Of a stretch of 64,000 bases of DNA, positions 145 through 62,291 are shown in pieces. The DNA is from an uncultured Methanomicrobiales archaeon. Its GTDB lineage: Archaea > Halobacteriota > Methanomicrobia > Methanomicrobiales > Methanospirillaceae. Under the pieces are notes generated by a model, which searched no databases, was not told the origin of the DNA, and was given only the letters and a program-made list of their open reading frames with translations. The position numbers were made by a program, and so were the translations under genes. Within the stretch, counting starts at the first letter, position 1. Each line of letters opens with the position of its first letter. The stretch is from assembly GCA_903926075.1 (NCBI GenBank), contig CAIYHQ010000074.1:1-64000 (forward strand), in the 5' to 3' direction.

Positions 145-1383
145 TTAAAGACTACAATGTCGTAACTTCGTTTTTTGTTTCATTCTTGACCTTCTAGAGT
201 TTTTTCTATTCTTATGATTTTCTAAAATTATCTTTGCGACAGTAAGGGGACTTAAAATTTTTTGAGGAAGTTTAAGTCTGATGATTTGTACGACATCCTG
301 GCGTGTAAAATCTTTAGAGATCTCACTCAAAACATCAAGTTCCTTCGTTATCCAGAACATTGCAAGGAGAACTAAAGACATATGATGATGCCATGCATTC
401 CAGTTTCTCACTTGGTAATCTACCATTCCAGCTAAATCGATAGAATCCTGAAATATTCGTTCAACCCAATATCGTTCACTTTGCATCCTGACCAACTTTC
501 CCCATGATCTAATATGAATAGCATTGCACAATGAATATTTCACATCTGAATCATCGAGTTCCTTGCGAATAAGAAGCCATACAGGGAGAGGTTTTTGGAC
601 CTCTTTGTCGATTCTCCAAACTCGGATTGCAAAAAATTTTACATCCAAAAATCCTTTTGTAGAAGTTCGAACACGGATAGTTCTCCATTTAGTGATCCTT
701 TCAATAATTTTATCAACACGAATTGAACTTGTATTGGTGACCACAACCTTGGACTTTTTTCTCCCTTTATTTCCATTACGGGATGGAATTCCATATTTGG
801 GTTCACTACAATATACATATTCATCTGCCTTGATGTCAGCGACAAAAAGTATCTTCATCTGTTCTAATCTGGTGAGTAGCCATGGTTTTGTACCATAAAA
901 TCCATCCATGCAGACATGTCGAAATCGAATTCCTGTTCGAACCGCTTGAACTATCATTTCATATGCGAGCTCAGATTTTGTTCGAAACACTCGTTCACTT
1001 TCAGGGATACCTGCTTCATCACATCGATTCTGATCAGCAATCCAACAATATGGGAGATAAAGACGAAAATCAAGTAATATTCGGGCACCCTGCTTTACAT
1101 AAGCAAGAAAGACTCCTACCTGGCAGTTTTCAACTTTACCCAGATTCCCACAATACTGACGGTGGACTCCCACTGACTTTCTACCGGATTTTGGAGTGCC
1201 ACACTCATCAATGATCAGGACACCATTTTTTCCAATAAGTTTCCAGCCGTTACTGCGGATCCAATCTAGAAGTAATCGATAATCCCAAGGTGATTGGGAG
1301 AGAAAATGGCTAAATGCCTGATTATTGATCTCACTACTTCTTGTTGATATTTCGGTGAGATGACGCCTTTTAGTACATATCAC
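145..1383 (-). CDS. IS701-family DDE transposase, 5' end doubtful
   Basis: The protein carries the IS701-type signature: an acidic residue before CGTPKSGRKSVGVHRQYCG, then LGKVENCQVGVF, and a later catalytic region around CMDGFYG. The first start codon in this frame is the GTG at 1381-1383, which gives 412 residues and would cut off the family N-terminus. The same frame stays open upstream to a stop at 1555-1557 and encodes plausible N-terminal sequence (RLDELAEQIGEH, then THNCWNHALEYIKG), but without an ATG, GTG or TTG. An ATG at 1547-1549 is one frame away. A one-base change between about 1510 and 1549 may have inactivated the gene, or it uses an unusual start. Transposition is the inferred role. 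Confidence 0.8.
   Translation of the reverse strand: MICTKRRHLTEISTRSSEINNQAFSHFLSQSPWDYRLLLDWIRSNGWKLIGKNGVLIIDECGTPKSGRKSVGVHRQYCGNLGKVENCQVGVFLAYVKQGARILLDFRLYLPYCWIADQNRCDEAGIPESERVFRTKSELAYEMIVQAVRTGIRFRHVCMDGFYGTKPWLLTRLEQMKILFVADIKADEYVYCSEPKYGIPSRNGNKGRKKSKVVVTNTSSIRVDKIIERITKWRTIRVRTSTKGFLDVKFFAIRVWRIDKEVQKPLPVWLLIRKELDDSDVKYSLCNAIHIRSWGKLVRMQSERYWVERIFQDSIDLAGMVDYQVRNWNAWHHHMSLVLLAMFWITKELDVLSEISKDFTRQDVVQIIRLKLPQKILSPLTVAKIILENHKNRKNSRRSRMKQKTKLRHCSL
152..161 (+). repeat. Left inverted repeat of the IS
   Basis: CTACAATGTC, the exact complement of 1617-1626. It overlaps the 3' end of the transposase gene. Confidence 0.5.
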
Positions 1384-2780: not shown

Positions 2781-3554
2781 CTATCCAAATTTATATGCAC
2801 TTTTTGGGACTAAAATTTCAAAACGTGCTCCGGCCCCAGGAATTCCGGTTTCTTTAACAGATAAACCTGTCATTGCAAGAATATCAACTGCGATAAACAT
2901 CCCAAAGCCGGTATTTTTTCCAAAGCCGAGCTCAAATACCTTCTCTTTCTCCTGGGTAGGAATTCCGACGCCATTATCCTCGTAAATAAGAATTAATTCA
3001 CTGTTTTTCACTATATAAGATGAACAAATCTCAGTTACATTCTCCCCATGGCGTTTTGAGTTGTCAATAAAATTATAGAATACTTTTTCGAGGAGCGGGT
3101 CGGCATAAATAAAAAGTCCATCCAGTTTAATATCTATGGATATCCCCATAATATCAAGAAGTGAGAAAGCTTTGATGAAAGTATCCTTTACATTCTGCCA
3201 TATTGCAGTATTTACTCCAATATCCTGATACTCTTTTGTGAATTCTATCTGGCGTTTAATTGTTAAAGCAGAATTTTTCTCTCTTTTTATGTACTCTAGC
3301 AGGTGAGGGTCTTTTGTCTCCATCTGGGTTATTTCAAGGTATCCAAGAAGTACCGTCAGCTGGTTGAGTATGTCATGCCGGGTTATACTGTTAAGCAGAT
3401 TCAATTTTTTATTTGTAGATCCAAGTCTCTTATTAGCATCATCAAGTTCACTAAATAGTGCAATGAGTCCTTTATTTGTCTCTTCAAGTTCTTTCCTTAG
3501 ATTAGTTATCTCATGTTCCTGCTTTTTAAGATGTTCATGGAAATCCTCAGTCAC
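2781..3554 (-). CDS. Soluble sensor-type histidine kinase
   Basis: A 257-residue kinase with a predicted coiled coil at about residues 5-50, a phosphoacceptor region SITRHDILNQL with His60, and a HATPase_c domain with an N-box (NFIDNSKRHG, 161-170), DNGVGI (193-198) and a glycine-rich lid (GFGMFI, about 216-221). It has no transmembrane segment and no PAS domain, so input probably comes from a partner. The GTG start is one base after the stop of the RsbT/RsbX-like gene, which places it as the last gene of the stressosome-like operon. Inference: it may be the output of the module, replacing the sigma-factor branch found in Bacillus. Its response regulator is not adjacent. Confidence 0.8.
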   Translation of the reverse strand: MTEDFHEHLKKQEHEITNLRKELEETNKGLIALFSELDDANKRLGSTNKKLNLLNSITRHDILNQLTVLLGYLEITQMETKDPHLLEYIKREKNSALTIKRQIEFTKEYQDIGVNTAIWQNVKDTFIKAFSLLDIMGISIDIKLDGLFIYADPLLEKVFYNFIDNSKRHGENVTEICSSYIVKNSELILIYEDNGVGIPTQEKEKVFELGFGKNTGFGMFIAVDILAMTGLSVKETGIPGAGARFEILVPKSAYKFG

Positions 3555-3555
3555 A

Positions 3556-4557
3556 CTATTTCACCACAACAACTGTTGCATCATCGTTCATCTTCCAGTA
3601 ATTCTTTATTATCCTGTCTGCAATATCAAGTGACCTTAATTTTTCAAAATCCTTTTCATTTGAAAATTTACTGCTTATCCCATCACTAAAAATAATGAGG
3701 GTATTCCTTCTCTGCTGCCAGTTATACGAAAAAACTTTTATTTTTGGGATGGTTATTCCAAGGACCCCTGGAAGATTTATAGGTTTTAATTCATTTGAAG
3801 ACGGAAAAATAGTTGCATTAACATCACCGACTCCGGCATAATCTAAAGTACCTCTGACCTCATCAATTCGGGCAATACTCATAACAGCTCCGCGTGTGGA
3901 ACGTAAAGCTGAATGAATCTCTTCAAAAATCTCTTCCAAAGATAAAATATGGTATGTCTCTCCCAATATCTTTTCAGCAACATTTGTGGCTTCATGGGCT
4001 GATGGACCATGACCTAGACCATCAATTACAGCAACAAATATCTTTTTTTTCTCGTTGCGAATAAAAAAACCATCACCTGATAGAGTTTCCAACGGATGAA
4101 CCCTAGAGAAGACACTAACTTCTGTATTATTCTGTTGGAAGTCTTTTTTATTGCCTGCAAATTTTTTTACCTTAATAGTTGTTCCTTCAATGCACGATTT
4201 AATTGAAAATTCATCTGATAGTCTCCTTACAGAGCCAAGTCCCACTCCCATACTTCCTTTGGTTGAACTTGTGTGATCTTTTAATGCAAAATTAACATCT
4301 TTAATACCCGGGCCCTTATCTACAGACTGAATTTCAATTCCGATCTCCTCATTTTCACCAAAAATTAATTCTGCTAAAATTTCACCTTTGATTGCTTTGT
4401 GCTTTAGAAGGTTTGTTACAAGTTCTATTACAATAAGGTCAATATCGCCACACGATCTCTTAGAAAAATTATTTCTAAAACATAATGCGCTTATCTCTCT
4501 TTTTACTGCTGCAATATCGGATTCGTCACAAACAGCATATCGATGGAGAAGAGTCAT
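3556..4557 (-). CDS. RsbT-type ATPase fused to RsbX/SpoIIE-type phosphatase
   Basis: Two domains in 333 residues. Residues 1-133 form a GHKL anti-sigma-type ATPase domain (IELVTNLLKH, DKGPGI and GSMGVGLGSVRRL). Residues 148-333 form a PP2C/SpoIIE-type phosphatase with its metal-binding acidic motifs present: LSGDGFF, VIDGLGHG, FSDG and NDDATV. The gene overlaps the upstream RsbT-like gene by four bases (4554-4557). In Bacillus, RsbX dephosphorylates RsbS and RsbR to reset the stressosome, and RsbT phosphorylates them. Here a kinase-type and a phosphatase domain share one chain, which suggests a combined switch and reset enzyme. The N-terminal domain could be only a regulatory binding domain. 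Confidence 0.82.
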   Translation of the reverse strand: MTLLHRYAVCDESDIAAVKREISALCFRNNFSKRSCGDIDLIVIELVTNLLKHKAIKGEILAELIFGENEEIGIEIQSVDKGPGIKDVNFALKDHTSSTKGSMGVGLGSVRRLSDEFSIKSCIEGTTIKVKKFAGNKKDFQQNNTEVSVFSRVHPLETLSGDGFFIRNEKKKIFVAVIDGLGHGPSAHEATNVAEKILGETYHILSLEEIFEEIHSALRSTRGAVMSIARIDEVRGTLDYAGVGDVNATIFPSSNELKPINLPGVLGITIPKIKVFSYNWQQRRNTLIIFSDGISSKFSNEKDFEKLRSLDIADRIIKNYWKMNDDATVVVVK

Positions 4558-4946
4558 GGCATCTTCTTAAATATTATCACTTTTGTGCCTTTTCCGGGTG
4601 TTGATTCAATTTTCATTTCATCTACAAGCCTTTGCGTCCCTGGAAGACCAAGACCAAGACTTCCCTGTGTGGTTGTGAAACCCTCCTGCATCGCGAGGCT
4701 GACATTTTCAATACCCGGACCTTCGTCACTAAATATGGCCCGCATTCCGTGAGGTGATAAGACATCCTGCAGTTCAACCAGGCCTTTTCCAGCATATCTG
4801 AAAATATTACGTGCGAGTTCAGATGTGGCAGTAGCTATTTTTGTCTGATCAACAATACCAAATCCCATCTCTTTGGCAAAATCACGTACAACCCTCCTGG
4901 CTTCAACAATATCGCCTTCATCCTGGATTGTAACTGTCTGCATCAT
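4554..4946 (-). CDS. RsbT-like serine/threonine kinase
   Basis: A single GHKL ATPase domain of 130 residues, the usual size of RsbT. The N-box is SELARNIFRYAG (42-53), followed by DEGPGI (74-79) and the G2 lid GSLGLGLPG (95-103). These motifs and the order RsbR-RsbS-RsbT match the bacterial stressosome kinase, which phosphorylates the STAS domains of RsbR and RsbS and then leaves the complex to act on its output. The gene is 13 bases after the RsbS-like gene and overlaps the next gene by four bases. No sigma-B or RsbU gene is seen here, as expected for an archaeon. Confidence 0.85.
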   Translation of the reverse strand: MMQTVTIQDEGDIVEARRVVRDFAKEMGFGIVDQTKIATATSELARNIFRYAGKGLVELQDVLSPHGMRAIFSDEGPGIENVSLAMQEGFTTTQGSLGLGLPGTQRLVDEMKIESTPGKGTKVIIFKKMP

Positions 4947-4959
4947 TCTAAATAATCCA

Positions 4960-5340
4960 CTATAATTTATTTTTAAAATCTTCTTCTGTGATCAATTCGT
5001 TTAGAATTTCAAACCCATGGTCAAGATTATTGGCAGTATAGACCTGGTTCATCTTAAGACCAAGTTCTATAAGGGTTATTGCAACTGCAGGCTGAATCCC
5101 GGTGACCACAACCTTAGCACCGATAAGGCCTGCCATTATTGCTGAATCACGAAGTGTACGTGCCATAAATGAATCCATGATATCAAGCGCTGATACGTCA
5201 ATTAGAACTCCCCTGGCATGAGTCTCAATAATTTTATTGAGAATATCCTCTTGCAGGATCTTAATTATCATATCATGGATATCGGTCTGGATAGAGATGA
5301 TAAGAAAATTTTTAAGTTTTAAAATTGGAATACGTTCCAT
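4960..5340 (-). CDS. RsbS-like stand-alone STAS protein
   Basis: A 126-residue STAS domain. The phosphoacceptor loop reads IDVSALDIMDSFMARTL, and Ser57 sits at the position of the serine phosphorylated by RsbT in Bacillus RsbS. The later VVVTGIQPAVAITLIELG segment is typical of RsbS/RsbR STAS domains. RsbS forms the stressosome core with RsbR proteins and holds RsbT. The start codon follows the rsbR-like stop by four bases, with AAAGGA as a likely ribosome site overlapping the end of the upstream gene, so translation is probably coupled. Confidence 0.85.
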   Translation of the reverse strand: MERIPILKLKNFLIISIQTDIHDMIIKILQEDILNKIIETHARGVLIDVSALDIMDSFMARTLRDSAIMAGLIGAKVVVTGIQPAVAITLIELGLKMNQVYTANNLDHGFEILNELITEEDFKNKL

Positions 5341-5344
5341 CGCT

Positions 5345-6166
5345 TCAATTTCCTTTTAGCTCTAAAGCTTGTCTCGGAACGATAACATATCCACGTGCAT
5401 TCATGGCATACTGGACTCCTTCCTGCAAAGTTGCCCGTGTCATAATATCACCGAGTTCAATTCCCAGGTGTACCATAGTCATTGCAACATCAGGACGAAT
5501 TCCGGTCATTATCACCTGTGCACCCAGGAGTTTTACTGCACTCGTAGCCTTGAGCATATGAGCAGCTACTGCGGTGTCAATGGCCCCCATACCGGTGCCA
5601 TCCATTATAATGTACCTGGCACCGGTATCTCTGATAACTTCAAGAAGTTGCTCCATCATCTGATTTGCCCTGTGCGAGTCCAGAGTTCCAATTAATGGGA
5701 GGACAAGAATTTCATCCCAGATCTTTGTAACAGGTGTTGAAAGTTCTAAAATTTCTTTTGTTTTAAGTTTTAAAGTTTTTTCTGCCTTTTTTTGTTCTGT
5801 TACATCCTCAAATCTGATAAGGATCTGTTTCTCTGTCGCTTCGGTGTACCTGCGCATTGGACGGGGGTTTATAATAAAAATCCTGTACCCTATTAGTGGA
5901 AACTCCTTTTCAAGTTGAAAACCCTCGCCCTGAACATCACAAGTCAGAATCGCTTCAAGGCTTTCATGGACCTCCCTCGTATCAAATGCACCTTCACAAA
6001 TCTTAAAAATTGAATTCCCTTCTATAAGACTCCGGTTAGTCTGGAAGGTTTTGTCAAAAGCCCTGTTTCCAAATATAATTGAGAGAAATTCGTCGAGAAC
6101 AATTAATGGTTCGTTAACTGTCTGTATAATTTCAAAAGGATTAACATTCATTTTTTTATCAGTCAT
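5345..6166 (-). CDS. RsbR-like sensor: PAS domain plus C-terminal STAS
   Basis: A 273-residue protein. Residues 10-125 look like a PAS domain ending in the usual IRFEDVTEQKKAE linker, followed by a short helix and a STAS domain at about 143-260. The STAS part contains LPLIGTLDSHRA and MDGTGMGAIDTAVAAHML. Thr198 matches the conserved second phosphothreonine of RsbR, and Thr161 or Ser164 is near the position of the first. RsbR proteins form the stressosome shell, with a variable N-terminal sensor. The PAS domain suggests a small-ligand, redox or light input, but no cofactor residue can be assigned from sequence alone. It is the first gene of the operon. Confidence 0.85.
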   Translation of the reverse strand: MTDKKMNVNPFEIIQTVNEPLIVLDEFLSIIFGNRAFDKTFQTNRSLIEGNSIFKICEGAFDTREVHESLEAILTCDVQGEGFQLEKEFPLIGYRIFIINPRPMRRYTEATEKQILIRFEDVTEQKKAEKTLKLKTKEILELSTPVTKIWDEILVLPLIGTLDSHRANQMMEQLLEVIRDTGARYIIMDGTGMGAIDTAVAAHMLKATSAVKLLGAQVIMTGIRPDVAMTMVHLGIELGDIMTRATLQEGVQYAMNARGYVIVPRQALELKGN

Positions 6167-6216: not shown

Positions 6217-7533
6217 TTATGGGACCGGATTTGTTACACGACCTGCAAAAAGAATTGCCCCAGTTTCATCATCTACTATTAAGAAGATAAAGGGATGATC
6301 AGCCCTGAAAACAGGTGTTTTTGTTGAAACCGGAAAAGCTGCACCTCCGACTGCAATTACTGCGGTAGCTGCAGCAGCTTCAGTACCTTCTTCATTCACA
6401 TCAATATATGCCTTATGAATTATTTTATCTATATACAGGTTTTTTGTGCCACCCATTCCGGAAAAATTTGCATTATTACTAAACGCAGAAAGCATTCCCA
6501 TTGATACAAGATTTTCCTTTAAATCGTATTCAGTCTCAAGTTTGAATTTAGGTAAATAAACCATTACATGTTCTTCATCCAGTGAAGAAATTATATTAGC
6601 TGATTTTCCCGGATCGAGATATCCCAGAGCATCATTAAGTGTATTCCCCTTGGGAAGCAGAATTATCATTGATAATCCTGTTCCATTGCCTTTTGAATAG
6701 GGTAATTTTATTACCTGGACCCTGGATGTTTCAGTATAGTTATAGATGGCATTCTCATCGGTTTTTTCCATCATACTGACTTTTTTCGTTTTCTTTTCTG
6801 ATATCCTGAAATCCGCATCTTTGGTAAGGGCCGGGTCGAACTTTTTCTCCCAACTCCCATTAAAATACACCGAATTTGTTATTACAAGCCTTGTATCCGG
6901 TTGAATCCCCCCTGGAGGGATAAGGTTTTTTATTTTTCCGCCAGTTTTATTCAGGGTCCACGTGTTAATTACTTCTCGTGAGCCGCCCGGATTCATCATA
7001 AAATCAAGATTTGACGTATTCGCATTGTAATATATTTGAGAAAGGTTGATATATCCGGGATTAAATGCATAAGATTTTTCGGCCCACAAGGCATTGGCTA
7101 TATCGAGGGTATAACCTTTATCTTTACGGTTAAATCCGGATGTGAGATTATAATAACCATTTCTTAGCGTTTCGTTATTTTTTGGAAAATTAAAAACACT
7201 CTGAATCTCATCTGCGGTCTTACCCCTGGCACCTTCAAATGCAATAGCGAGAGCGGAGGAGATACTGAACGGGGAGTATAGGATGTTATCCGGATTACTA
7301 ATATTTTCCCTGACAAGATTTGAAAACAAAGCCGAAGAAAACTTGTTATTCGCTGCAGCGATACTTTTTTCCGGAGAAGAGACTTGAACGACTGGTTTTT
7401 CAAGAACTCCATTAACTATTCTGGCTCCGGAATTCACAACAGTATTTGAATCGGCAGATACCAGGCAAATCTGCGCAAGTAAGCAAAAAATAACAAGCAT
7501 TACAGTTATTATTAAAGATTTTGCAGGTGTCAT
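6217..7533 (-). CDS. Exported serpin (serine protease inhibitor)
   Basis: A full-length serpin of 438 residues. It has an N-terminal signal peptide (hydrophobic residues about 6-27), the ILYSPFSISSAL helix-B region, LVITNSVYFNGSW, and a C-terminal ADHPFIFLI. The reactive-loop hinge is NEEGTEAAAATAV, with small residues at P12-P9 as in inhibitory serpins. Counting from the hinge puts P1 in a Gly-Gly-Ala-Ala-Phe stretch, with a somewhat long segment after it. It probably acts outside the cell and traps a serine or cysteine protease irreversibly. The target is unknown. It lies 50 bases upstream of the stressosome-like operon on the same strand. Confidence 0.92.
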   Translation of the reverse strand: MTPAKSLIITVMLVIFCLLAQICLVSADSNTVVNSGARIVNGVLEKPVVQVSSPEKSIAAANNKFSSALFSNLVRENISNPDNILYSPFSISSALAIAFEGARGKTADEIQSVFNFPKNNETLRNGYYNLTSGFNRKDKGYTLDIANALWAEKSYAFNPGYINLSQIYYNANTSNLDFMMNPGGSREVINTWTLNKTGGKIKNLIPPGGIQPDTRLVITNSVYFNGSWEKKFDPALTKDADFRISEKKTKKVSMMEKTDENAIYNYTETSRVQVIKLPYSKGNGTGLSMIILLPKGNTLNDALGYLDPGKSANIISSLDEEHVMVYLPKFKLETEYDLKENLVSMGMLSAFSNNANFSGMGGTKNLYIDKIIHKAYIDVNEEGTEAAAATAVIAVGGAAFPVSTKTPVFRADHPFIFLIVDDETGAILFAGRVTNPVP

Positions 7534-60894: not shown

Positions 60895-61926
60895 TTACCT
60901 CGACATTCCTGCTATCAGTTCAGAAATTTCTTTTGGTATTAAACGTAATGGCAAAACTTTGTCTACGGCATTTCGTTCAAGTGCTGAGCGGGGCATCCCG
61001 TATACAAGGCAATCTTCTTCTCTGCAGACCATAGTTTTTCCACCGGTCCCTTTTATCACTTCAGTCCCCTCTCCACCATCACTGCCCATACCACTAAGAA
61101 GAACTGAAACAATATTCTCTTTATATACATGAGCAGCTGAAGTAAATGTTTTATCGACAGCTGGTCTGACGTTATGAACAGGTGGCGATTTTGTATGCAC
61201 AATTTTTCCACCAGTCTTACCGAATGCGTTGATAAATCCTGAAATAACTGTATGAAATCCAGCTTTAGAGATGAAGACATGACCTTTAAATAAAATGTCA
61301 CCATTTTCAGTTTCCTTAACCGGTAATGGGGAGAGTCTATTGAGCCGGTTTGCAAGAGCTGCCGTGAACCCTCCTTCTGGCATATGCTGGGTAATGACAA
61401 CTGAAGCATCCAGGGTTGATGGAAGGTTTGAGAGAAGAACATCCAGCATGGGCGGACCACCGGCAGATGACCCCACAACAACACATCGGGTAGCTATATC
61501 ACCCACATTTGCCTCTGGTGCCCTTTGAATGTACTTTATCGATATGAGGTTTCTTATTCGTTCAATAAGTTCACGTTCAATTCCACGGACTGTATTAATC
61601 CCCTTGGGTTTAAGCATGAAATCGTCTGCACCAAGTTCTATTGCTGTTTTTGTTGCGAGAGCATCTTTCGAAGTAAGAGATGAGAGCATTAAGGTTTTTG
61701 GAAATTTTCTTACTGTTTTTCTCTGTCTTAACACTTCGAGTCCATCCATTCTTGGCATCTCGATATCAAGCGTCATTACATCTGGATTAGTGCTTTCAAT
61801 CATTCTTAAAGCTTCAATCCCATCCGAAGCTACTCCTATAACTTCAAAGTCCGGTTCTTTTGATAGCATATCCTCTACAATCGTCCTCATAAAGCGAGAA
61901 TCATCAACAATGAGAACACGAATCAT
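60895..61926 (-). CDS. cheB: Protein-glutamate methylesterase CheB
   Basis: A 343-residue CheB. The N-terminal receiver has Asp54 (TLDIEMPRMDG), followed by a linker and the C-terminal esterase, with the catalytic Ser in VVGSSAGGPPML, His in VITQHMPEGG and Asp in GMGSDGGEG. It removes methyl groups from receptor glutamates when phosphorylated. It is one base from cheA and two from cheY. Confidence 0.96.
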   Translation of the reverse strand: MIRVLIVDDSRFMRTIVEDMLSKEPDFEVIGVASDGIEALRMIESTNPDVMTLDIEMPRMDGLEVLRQRKTVRKFPKTLMLSSLTSKDALATKTAIELGADDFMLKPKGINTVRGIERELIERIRNLISIKYIQRAPEANVGDIATRCVVVGSSAGGPPMLDVLLSNLPSTLDASVVITQHMPEGGFTAALANRLNRLSPLPVKETENGDILFKGHVFISKAGFHTVISGFINAFGKTGGKIVHTKSPPVHNVRPAVDKTFTSAAHVYKENIVSVLLSGMGSDGGEGTEVIKGTGGKTMVCREEDCLVYGMPRSALERNAVDKVLPLRLIPKEISELIAGMSR

Positions 61927-61928
61927 TA

Positions 61929-62291
61929 TCAGGAACCGAGCACATTGTTTAGTTCTTCTATCACTTTTGGTGCCTGAAATGGCTTTACGATATATCCTTT
62001 AGCCCCACTTTTTATGGCAAGTTTGACCATCTGCTCCTGACCTACAGCAGTACACATAACAATTTTTGCATTCGGATCAAAAGCACGAATAGATTTAAGT
62101 GCTTCAATACCATTCATTTTTGGCATAACTACATCCATTGTAACGAGGTCGGGTTTTAATTCCTTATACTTCTCAACACCTTCATCCCCATCACCTGCCT
62201 CACCAACAATATCATGCCCTCCGGAGAAGATAATATTTTTCAAGAGTGTTCGCATAAAAAGGGTGTCATCTACAATTAGTATTCTCCCCAT
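61929..62291 (-). CDS. cheY: Chemotaxis response regulator CheY
   Basis: A 120-residue single receiver domain. Acidic residues are in LIVDDT, the phosphoacceptor is Asp53 (VTMDVVMPKMNG), and Thr/Lys switch residues are in CTAVGQ and GYIVKPF. Archaeal CheY acts on the archaellum motor through CheF. Confidence 0.95.
   Translation of the reverse strand: MGRILIVDDTLFMRTLLKNIIFSGGHDIVGEAGDGDEGVEKYKELKPDLVTMDVVMPKMNGIEALKSIRAFDPNAKIVMCTAVGQEQMVKLAIKSGAKGYIVKPFQAPKVIEELNNVLGS

Follow-up and report, generated by a model that had tools for sequence, protein, structure and literature searches.

A conserved coil as a candidate output adaptor of stressosomes with an ATPase-fused RsbX, in an archaeal operon and across bacteria

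The window analysed here, a stretch of 64,000 nucleotides (nt) of contig CAIYHQ010000074.1 (GCA_903926075.1) from an uncultured Methanomicrobiales archaeon (Methanospirillaceae), carries a stressosome-like operon, rsbR-rsbS-rsbT-rsbX followed by a histidine kinase gene. The five genes are co-directional on the minus strand and run from 6166 to 2781 with gaps or overlaps of no more than 13 nt, and all five open reading frames lie where, and in the order in which, a first-pass annotation of the same DNA had put them. The kinase carries a coil near its N terminus (3405-3542, minus strand), and sequence comparison makes it probable that this coil serves for RsbT-type docking and signal transfer in a second class of stressosome. 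This class, termed class A, is defined as R-S-T-X in which X joins an RsbT-like ATPase to a PP2C phosphatase, followed by a coil-bearing output protein (gene 5). On a wider view, the coil would be a general stressosome output adaptor equivalent to RsbU_N that defines the ATPase-fused-RsbX class in archaea and in 11 or more bacterial phyla, and an output, even a native archaeal kinase, could gain stressosome control by acquiring it; we hold this broader proposition to be evenly balanced.

The window coil matches the hidden Markov model (HMM) of coil alignment A2 with an expectation value (E) of 3e-18, and the invariant residues of that alignment fall in the pattern EL..TN.G..AL..EL, found at about 3444-3491. 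Searches with the model have linked the coil to RsbS at several taxonomic levels. Within the order (150 genomes), it was found in six of the seven genomes with RsbS, the seventh being cut by a contig end, and in none of the 143 without. Across the phylum (392 genomes), 8 of 28 genomes with RsbS carried it, each time within 2.5 kb of RsbS, as against 0 of 364 without, while for 79 Oxalobacteraceae genomes the counts were 20/22, at a distance of about 2-2.4 kb, and 0/57. The corresponding Fisher values (5e-10, 2e-10 and 9e-17, respectively) are indicative only, because the genomes share ancestry. Twenty bacterial genomes, chosen by way of their stressosome loci, also have one copy each, a 21st (G163) giving only a weak match of 5e-5, and there is one coil per genome save for three weak second matches (G194, G221 and G232). 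In the window genome it occurs on the gene-5 kinase alone. Besides archaea, the carriers belong to 11 bacterial phyla: Cyanobacteriota, Pseudomonadota, Acidobacteriota, Gemmatimonadota, Planctomycetota, Nitrospirota, Bdellovibrionota, Marinimicrobia, Bacteroidota/Ignavibacteria, Deinococcota and Actinomycetota.

Among 34 coil-bearing bacterial gene-5 proteins of less than 70% identity, the coil 16-mer was the best conserved stretch, with a mean pairwise identity of 0.88; the H box reached 0.77, the HATPase 0.52 and the fused T-like domain 0.46. Moreover, the coil is kept while the catalytic part varies, from a His-less DHp to HisKA_2, PAS-histidine kinase, HisKA-REC and the archaeal core. These observations bear on the possibility that the coil is a mere dimerisation or signalling-helix linker inherited with the kinase, and that RsbT controls the kinase by transient phosphorylation, the mechanism suggested by Heinz et al. 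for Vibrio VvD1. Histidine kinase linkers are often coiled coils, such as the S-helix (PMC1592074), binding of VvRsbT to VvD1 was not detected (PMC9237108), and the structural model of the coil protein at locus L039 shows one long, continuous helix (residues 157-239) passing through the coil into the DHp, with a predicted local distance difference test (pLDDT) score of 88. However, the coil persists where a different kinase, or none, follows it, is stressosome-specific and is more conserved than the H box. Like the S-helix it would lie between input and catalytic domains, but its conserved residues differ, it is tied to stressosome loci, and the ERT signature is absent from all 18 rows of A2 when judged by the published definition (PMC1592074), on which ground S-helix membership was rejected. 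Taken together, a simple linker seems unlikely. The coil string NRGVVALYAEL occurred in no paper of the literature searched, nor was a description of the coil or of the ATPase-fused X class found there; subscription papers lay outside that search, and part of this may already be known.

Fused-X loci with the coil numbered 71 and loci combining a single-domain X with RsbU_N numbered 14, with no mixed cases; two further loci had RsbU_N with no X found, and three single-X loci were without RsbU_N. Bacterial loci in this survey were the 80 nearest to the window RsbS, so class A is over-sampled. RsbU_N (PF08673) gave no Pfam match in the window kinase and was confirmed by Pfam in seven archaeal outputs of the other class. 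A prediction from the class split was also borne out, as a coil-less Oxalobacteraceae genome with RsbS (G209) proved to have a single-domain X with RsbU_N. Four archaeal loci of the RsbU_N type (L142, L144, L145 and L147) have an additional RsbT-like gene ahead of a single-domain PP2C gene, the arrangement that splitting a fused X in two would give.

The strict association with the fused X raises another possibility, which is a sub-case of docking on the coil: the ATPase domain of X, rather than RsbT, would dock on it, such that X couples resetting to output while RsbT phosphorylates the core only. The coil does occur solely alongside an ATPase-fused X (71 loci as against none with a single-domain X). 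On the other hand, the cis-fused domain of most gene-5 proteins scores as T-like, and the X fusion and the coil may simply be co-inherited. This version appears rather doubtful, if slightly less so than the linker. An RsbT-like domain lies before the coil in 58 of the 71 coil proteins. The 13 without it are those of the window, its four nearest relatives, five Xanthomonas, L041, and L153 and L154, the last two from more distant archaeal families. Since 58 of 71 carry the domain fused and 5 of 11 coil-less class A outputs retain a detectable cis T-like domain (the remainder lack one), the data fit a coil that receives a T-like domain either in cis or in trans. The N-terminal part of the L039 model has an RsbT/SpoIIAB-like fold, with SpoIIAB and RsbW as its top PDB matches. 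At L077 and L087, the fused RsbT-like domain of gene 5 has lost parts of its ATP-binding motifs and the coil is intact.

Several observations weigh against RsbT-type docking on the coil as the hallmark of class A. Fifteen fused-X loci had no detected coil; four of these end at a contig edge, leaving 11 with room for gene 5, mostly from Bacteroidota, the others being from Phaeobacter, Paraburkholderia, two Stahlbacteria and one archaeon. The loci share ancestry and do not count as independent, and the RsbU_N cases come almost entirely from archaea. The conservation set was chosen for the presence of the coil and therefore favours it, and the coil's conservation in bacteria partly reflects common descent, because most bacterial gene-5 kinases are homologous throughout. 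AlphaFold modelled the window kinase poorly (pLDDT 56), with a result usable no further than the N-terminal helix. Finally, the coil protein of the sister archaea has no kinase domain and therefore cannot itself serve as the output by phosphorelay.

The window kinase (2781-3554, minus strand) is a soluble protein with a GTG start, a 1-nt gap to rsbX and a generic Methanomicrobiales DHp/HATPase core behind the coil. Pfam assigned it a HATPase_c domain (6e-11) and a weak SPOB_a/HisKA match, and His60, Asn165, Asp193 and Gly216 are intact. Its core is 54% identical to that of its nearest paralogue in the same genome, which has a membrane sensor and no coil, and only 20-24% identical to the bacterial gene-5 kinases outside the coil, despite a coil that matches theirs. 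On these comparisons, the window kinase looks like a chimera, in which a stressosome coil was joined to a native methanogen core. The first-pass annotation had suggested that the kinase may take the signal onwards, and had named conservation with the set as a check; it had not noticed the coil. The coil indicates that the kinase does belong with the set, but its conservation as a kinase did not hold. The four nearest relatives, whose RsbS is 61-68% identical, have as gene 5 a protein of 144-167 residues with the coil, a degenerate DHp and no ATPase. The acceptor His position is occupied by Asn (VNKTRNP as against SHELRTP of kinases) as judged by eye, with a Pfam HisKA match at E 0.014. Because the catalytic part is missing in these relatives, the kinase as the conserved output was rejected.

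In the same four relatives, the His-less gene 5 is followed by a DUF7504 (KaiC-like) gene (L026:9186-9740, L027:8677-9240, L028:9282-9845 and L029:9894-10451; by Pfam in two and by eye in the others), which may be the real output there. At L031, which belongs to another lineage, gene 5 encodes 1253 residues comprising an RsbT-like domain, the coil, PAS and a HisKA_2 kinase, and a receiver protein gene comes after it. Directly upstream of the operon in two of the relatives (L026:3195-5906 and L027:2661-5372) are genes for a PAS/HAMP methyl-accepting chemotaxis protein and CheW, hinting at a chemotaxis link in those two.

It is also conceivable that the window kinase is a mere neighbour and that the archaeal stressosome output lies unlinked elsewhere. 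The four nearest relatives have indeed kept the set without the kinase core, and the window genome has many other kinases and 134 receiver-domain matches, among which no cognate response regulator could be assigned; no receiver-domain gene adjoins the operon. But the kinase is co-directional with rsbX across a single nucleotide and is alone in its genome in bearing the stressosome-output coil, which leaves mere proximity very improbable. Two receiver-domain genes occur side by side at about 61594-62282 (minus strand) in the window, far from the operon.

If the coil is a docking element, the system might operate as follows. By homology, RsbR and RsbS would form a STAS core that holds RsbT; upon a signal at the N-terminal domain of RsbR, RsbT would phosphorylate Thr198 of RsbR and Ser57 of RsbS and leave the core, which X would reset by stripping the phosphates. 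Either the released RsbT or the RsbT-like part of X could then dock on the EL..TN.G..AL..EL coil of the kinase. As the coil and the phospho-acceptor helix form one helix, docking may switch autophosphorylation at His60 and pass the signal on to some response regulator. We infer assembly, phosphorylation, docking and the direction of switching, and binding of the coil by RsbT or the X ATPase domain, with its effect on the kinase state, is proposed by analogy with the ordering of the RsbU linker by RsbT (PMC12143880). In such a scheme, the coil would stand in for RsbU_N plus linker of sigma-B-type stressosomes.

The remaining genes largely bear out the homologies assigned to them earlier. The rsbR-like gene (5345-6166, minus strand) had been called PAS-STAS; its C-terminal STAS domain (5456-5734) is secure (Pfam 2e-14), whereas the N-terminal PAS-like sensor is a weak match (E 0.0035) under the curated cut-off. 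Thr198 (codon 5573-5575) falls on the Thr that solved RsbRs have in common, the first acceptor site, while the second site, Thr205 in B. subtilis, is Val218. A PDB sequence search matched the RsbR STAS domains of V. vulnificus and Listeria (best E 6e-31). The rsbS-like gene (4960-5340, minus strand, 4-nt gap to rsbR) encodes a lone STAS domain by Pfam, with PDB matches to RsbS of B. subtilis (E 2e-33; 6jhk, 118 bits) and Listeria (E 5e-31), and Ser57 (codon 5170-5172), already singled out in the earlier reading, aligns with the serine of both. Two more short stand-alone STAS proteins occur in the window genome (G000:C133:90489-90794 and G000:C27:2943-3254), suggesting another partner-switching system. 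The switch kinase RsbT (4554-4946, minus strand, 13-nt gap to rsbS) has a HATPase_c_2 domain (1e-10) with Asn47 of the N box and Asp74 of the G1 box intact; its PDB match by sequence is SpoIIAB only, and it is encoded beside R and S.

The rsbX-like gene (3556-4557, minus strand, 4-nt overlap with rsbT) had been described as RsbT/RsbX-like. Both homologies are real, and the protein is properly a fusion of 333 residues: an RsbT-like ATPase (residues 14-131, about 4165-4518; HATPase_c_2) followed by a SpoIIE/RsbX-type PP2C domain (residues 145-333, 3559-4125; SpoIIE). The C-terminal half matches solved RsbX structures (3w40, E 2e-15; 3zt9, E 6e-21), and the metal-site residues Asp162, Asp179, Asp292 and Asp326 are present. 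With its N-terminal ATPase, it departs from the single-domain form expected of an RsbX feedback phosphatase.

Of the 150 genomes sampled in the order, 7 had an RsbS-like protein, always as part of an R-S-T-X array; in the phylum, 28 of 392 genomes had one, from 19 of 136 genera. The gene order R-S-T-X is not due to chance, since it recurs in dozens of bacteria and in each of the six further genomes of the taxonomic order that were sampled and carry the module. According to a contig scan and plasmid records, the R-S-T-X(ATPase+PP2C)-kinase layout is shared by many bacteria, with Deinococcus radiodurans MP1 and a Xanthomonas plasmid as examples. In a tree of S and T, the window groups with its four relatives (support 0.998), while a second archaeal group (L030, L031 and Methanoregula L109; 0.998) lies inside bacteria. 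The separation of these groups indicates that archaea probably acquired the module at least twice, though we infer the direction of transfer from a midpoint-rooted tree with weak deep nodes. The operon by itself is not new: archaeal rsbRSTX modules have been mentioned (PMC9237108, PMC10014275), as have their HisKA/REC outputs (PMC9237108), and the five-gene layout is common in bacteria. To call it an archaeal oddity would be too strong.

Compared with the RsbRST-RsbX system of Bacillus subtilis and Listeria, the window retains homologues of all four proteins, the RsbS Ser and the first RsbR Thr. It differs in the extra ATPase domain of X, the coil-bearing kinase output and the Val at the second RsbR site. 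No RsbU, RsbV, RsbW or sigma-B occurs within the window operon; archaea are not known to have sigma factors. In Vibrio vulnificus, an rsbRSTX module is likewise followed directly by two-component genes (VvD1 and VvD2; PMC9237108), and among solved structures VvRsbR matches the window RsbR best. The Vibrio system, however, has a globin sensor and a single-domain RsbX, whereas the window lacks a response regulator beside its kinase and has the coil, the coil status of VvD1 lying outside this comparison. The authors of the Vibrio structure reported that most outputs lack RsbU_N and that stable binding between RsbT and the kinase was not found (PMC9237108). RsbU_N outputs with histidine kinase or GGDEF domains have been described for Moorella MtG and Proteobacteria (PMC12143880), and these share a proposed logic, in which a coiled-coil linker becomes ordered once RsbT is bound and then drives the dimeric output domains; the window kinase has a different conserved coil in place of RsbU_N, and the two never occur together in the surveyed loci. 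The bacterial operons of D. radiodurans MP1, Xanthomonas pXVH29, Nostoc and Massilia have the same gene order, fused X and gene-5 coil. Their kinases, in contrast, are built on standard HisKA cores, to which a cis T-like domain and REC are often added; gene 5 of Xanthomonas, like the window kinase, has the coil and kinase without a fused T. How stressosomes without RsbU reach their outputs is a question that the coil makes testable, and outputs would become predictable from sequence. Its presence on a native archaeal kinase suggests that the conserved helix is a plug from stress sensor to output, and points to a way in which archaea could connect a stress hub of bacterial type to two-component signalling of their own.

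A scan of the window for sigma-70 promoters and terminators gave counts equal to those of shuffled sequences, under models that do not apply to archaea. On the same strand, 50 nt upstream of rsbR, is a full-length serpin gene with a signal-like N terminus (6217-7533, minus strand; PF00079, E 8e-115); membership of the operon was not supported, as other genes occupy that position in the relatives examined. An IS701-family transposase (E 4e-82) lies on the downstream side of the operon at 145-1383 (minus strand).

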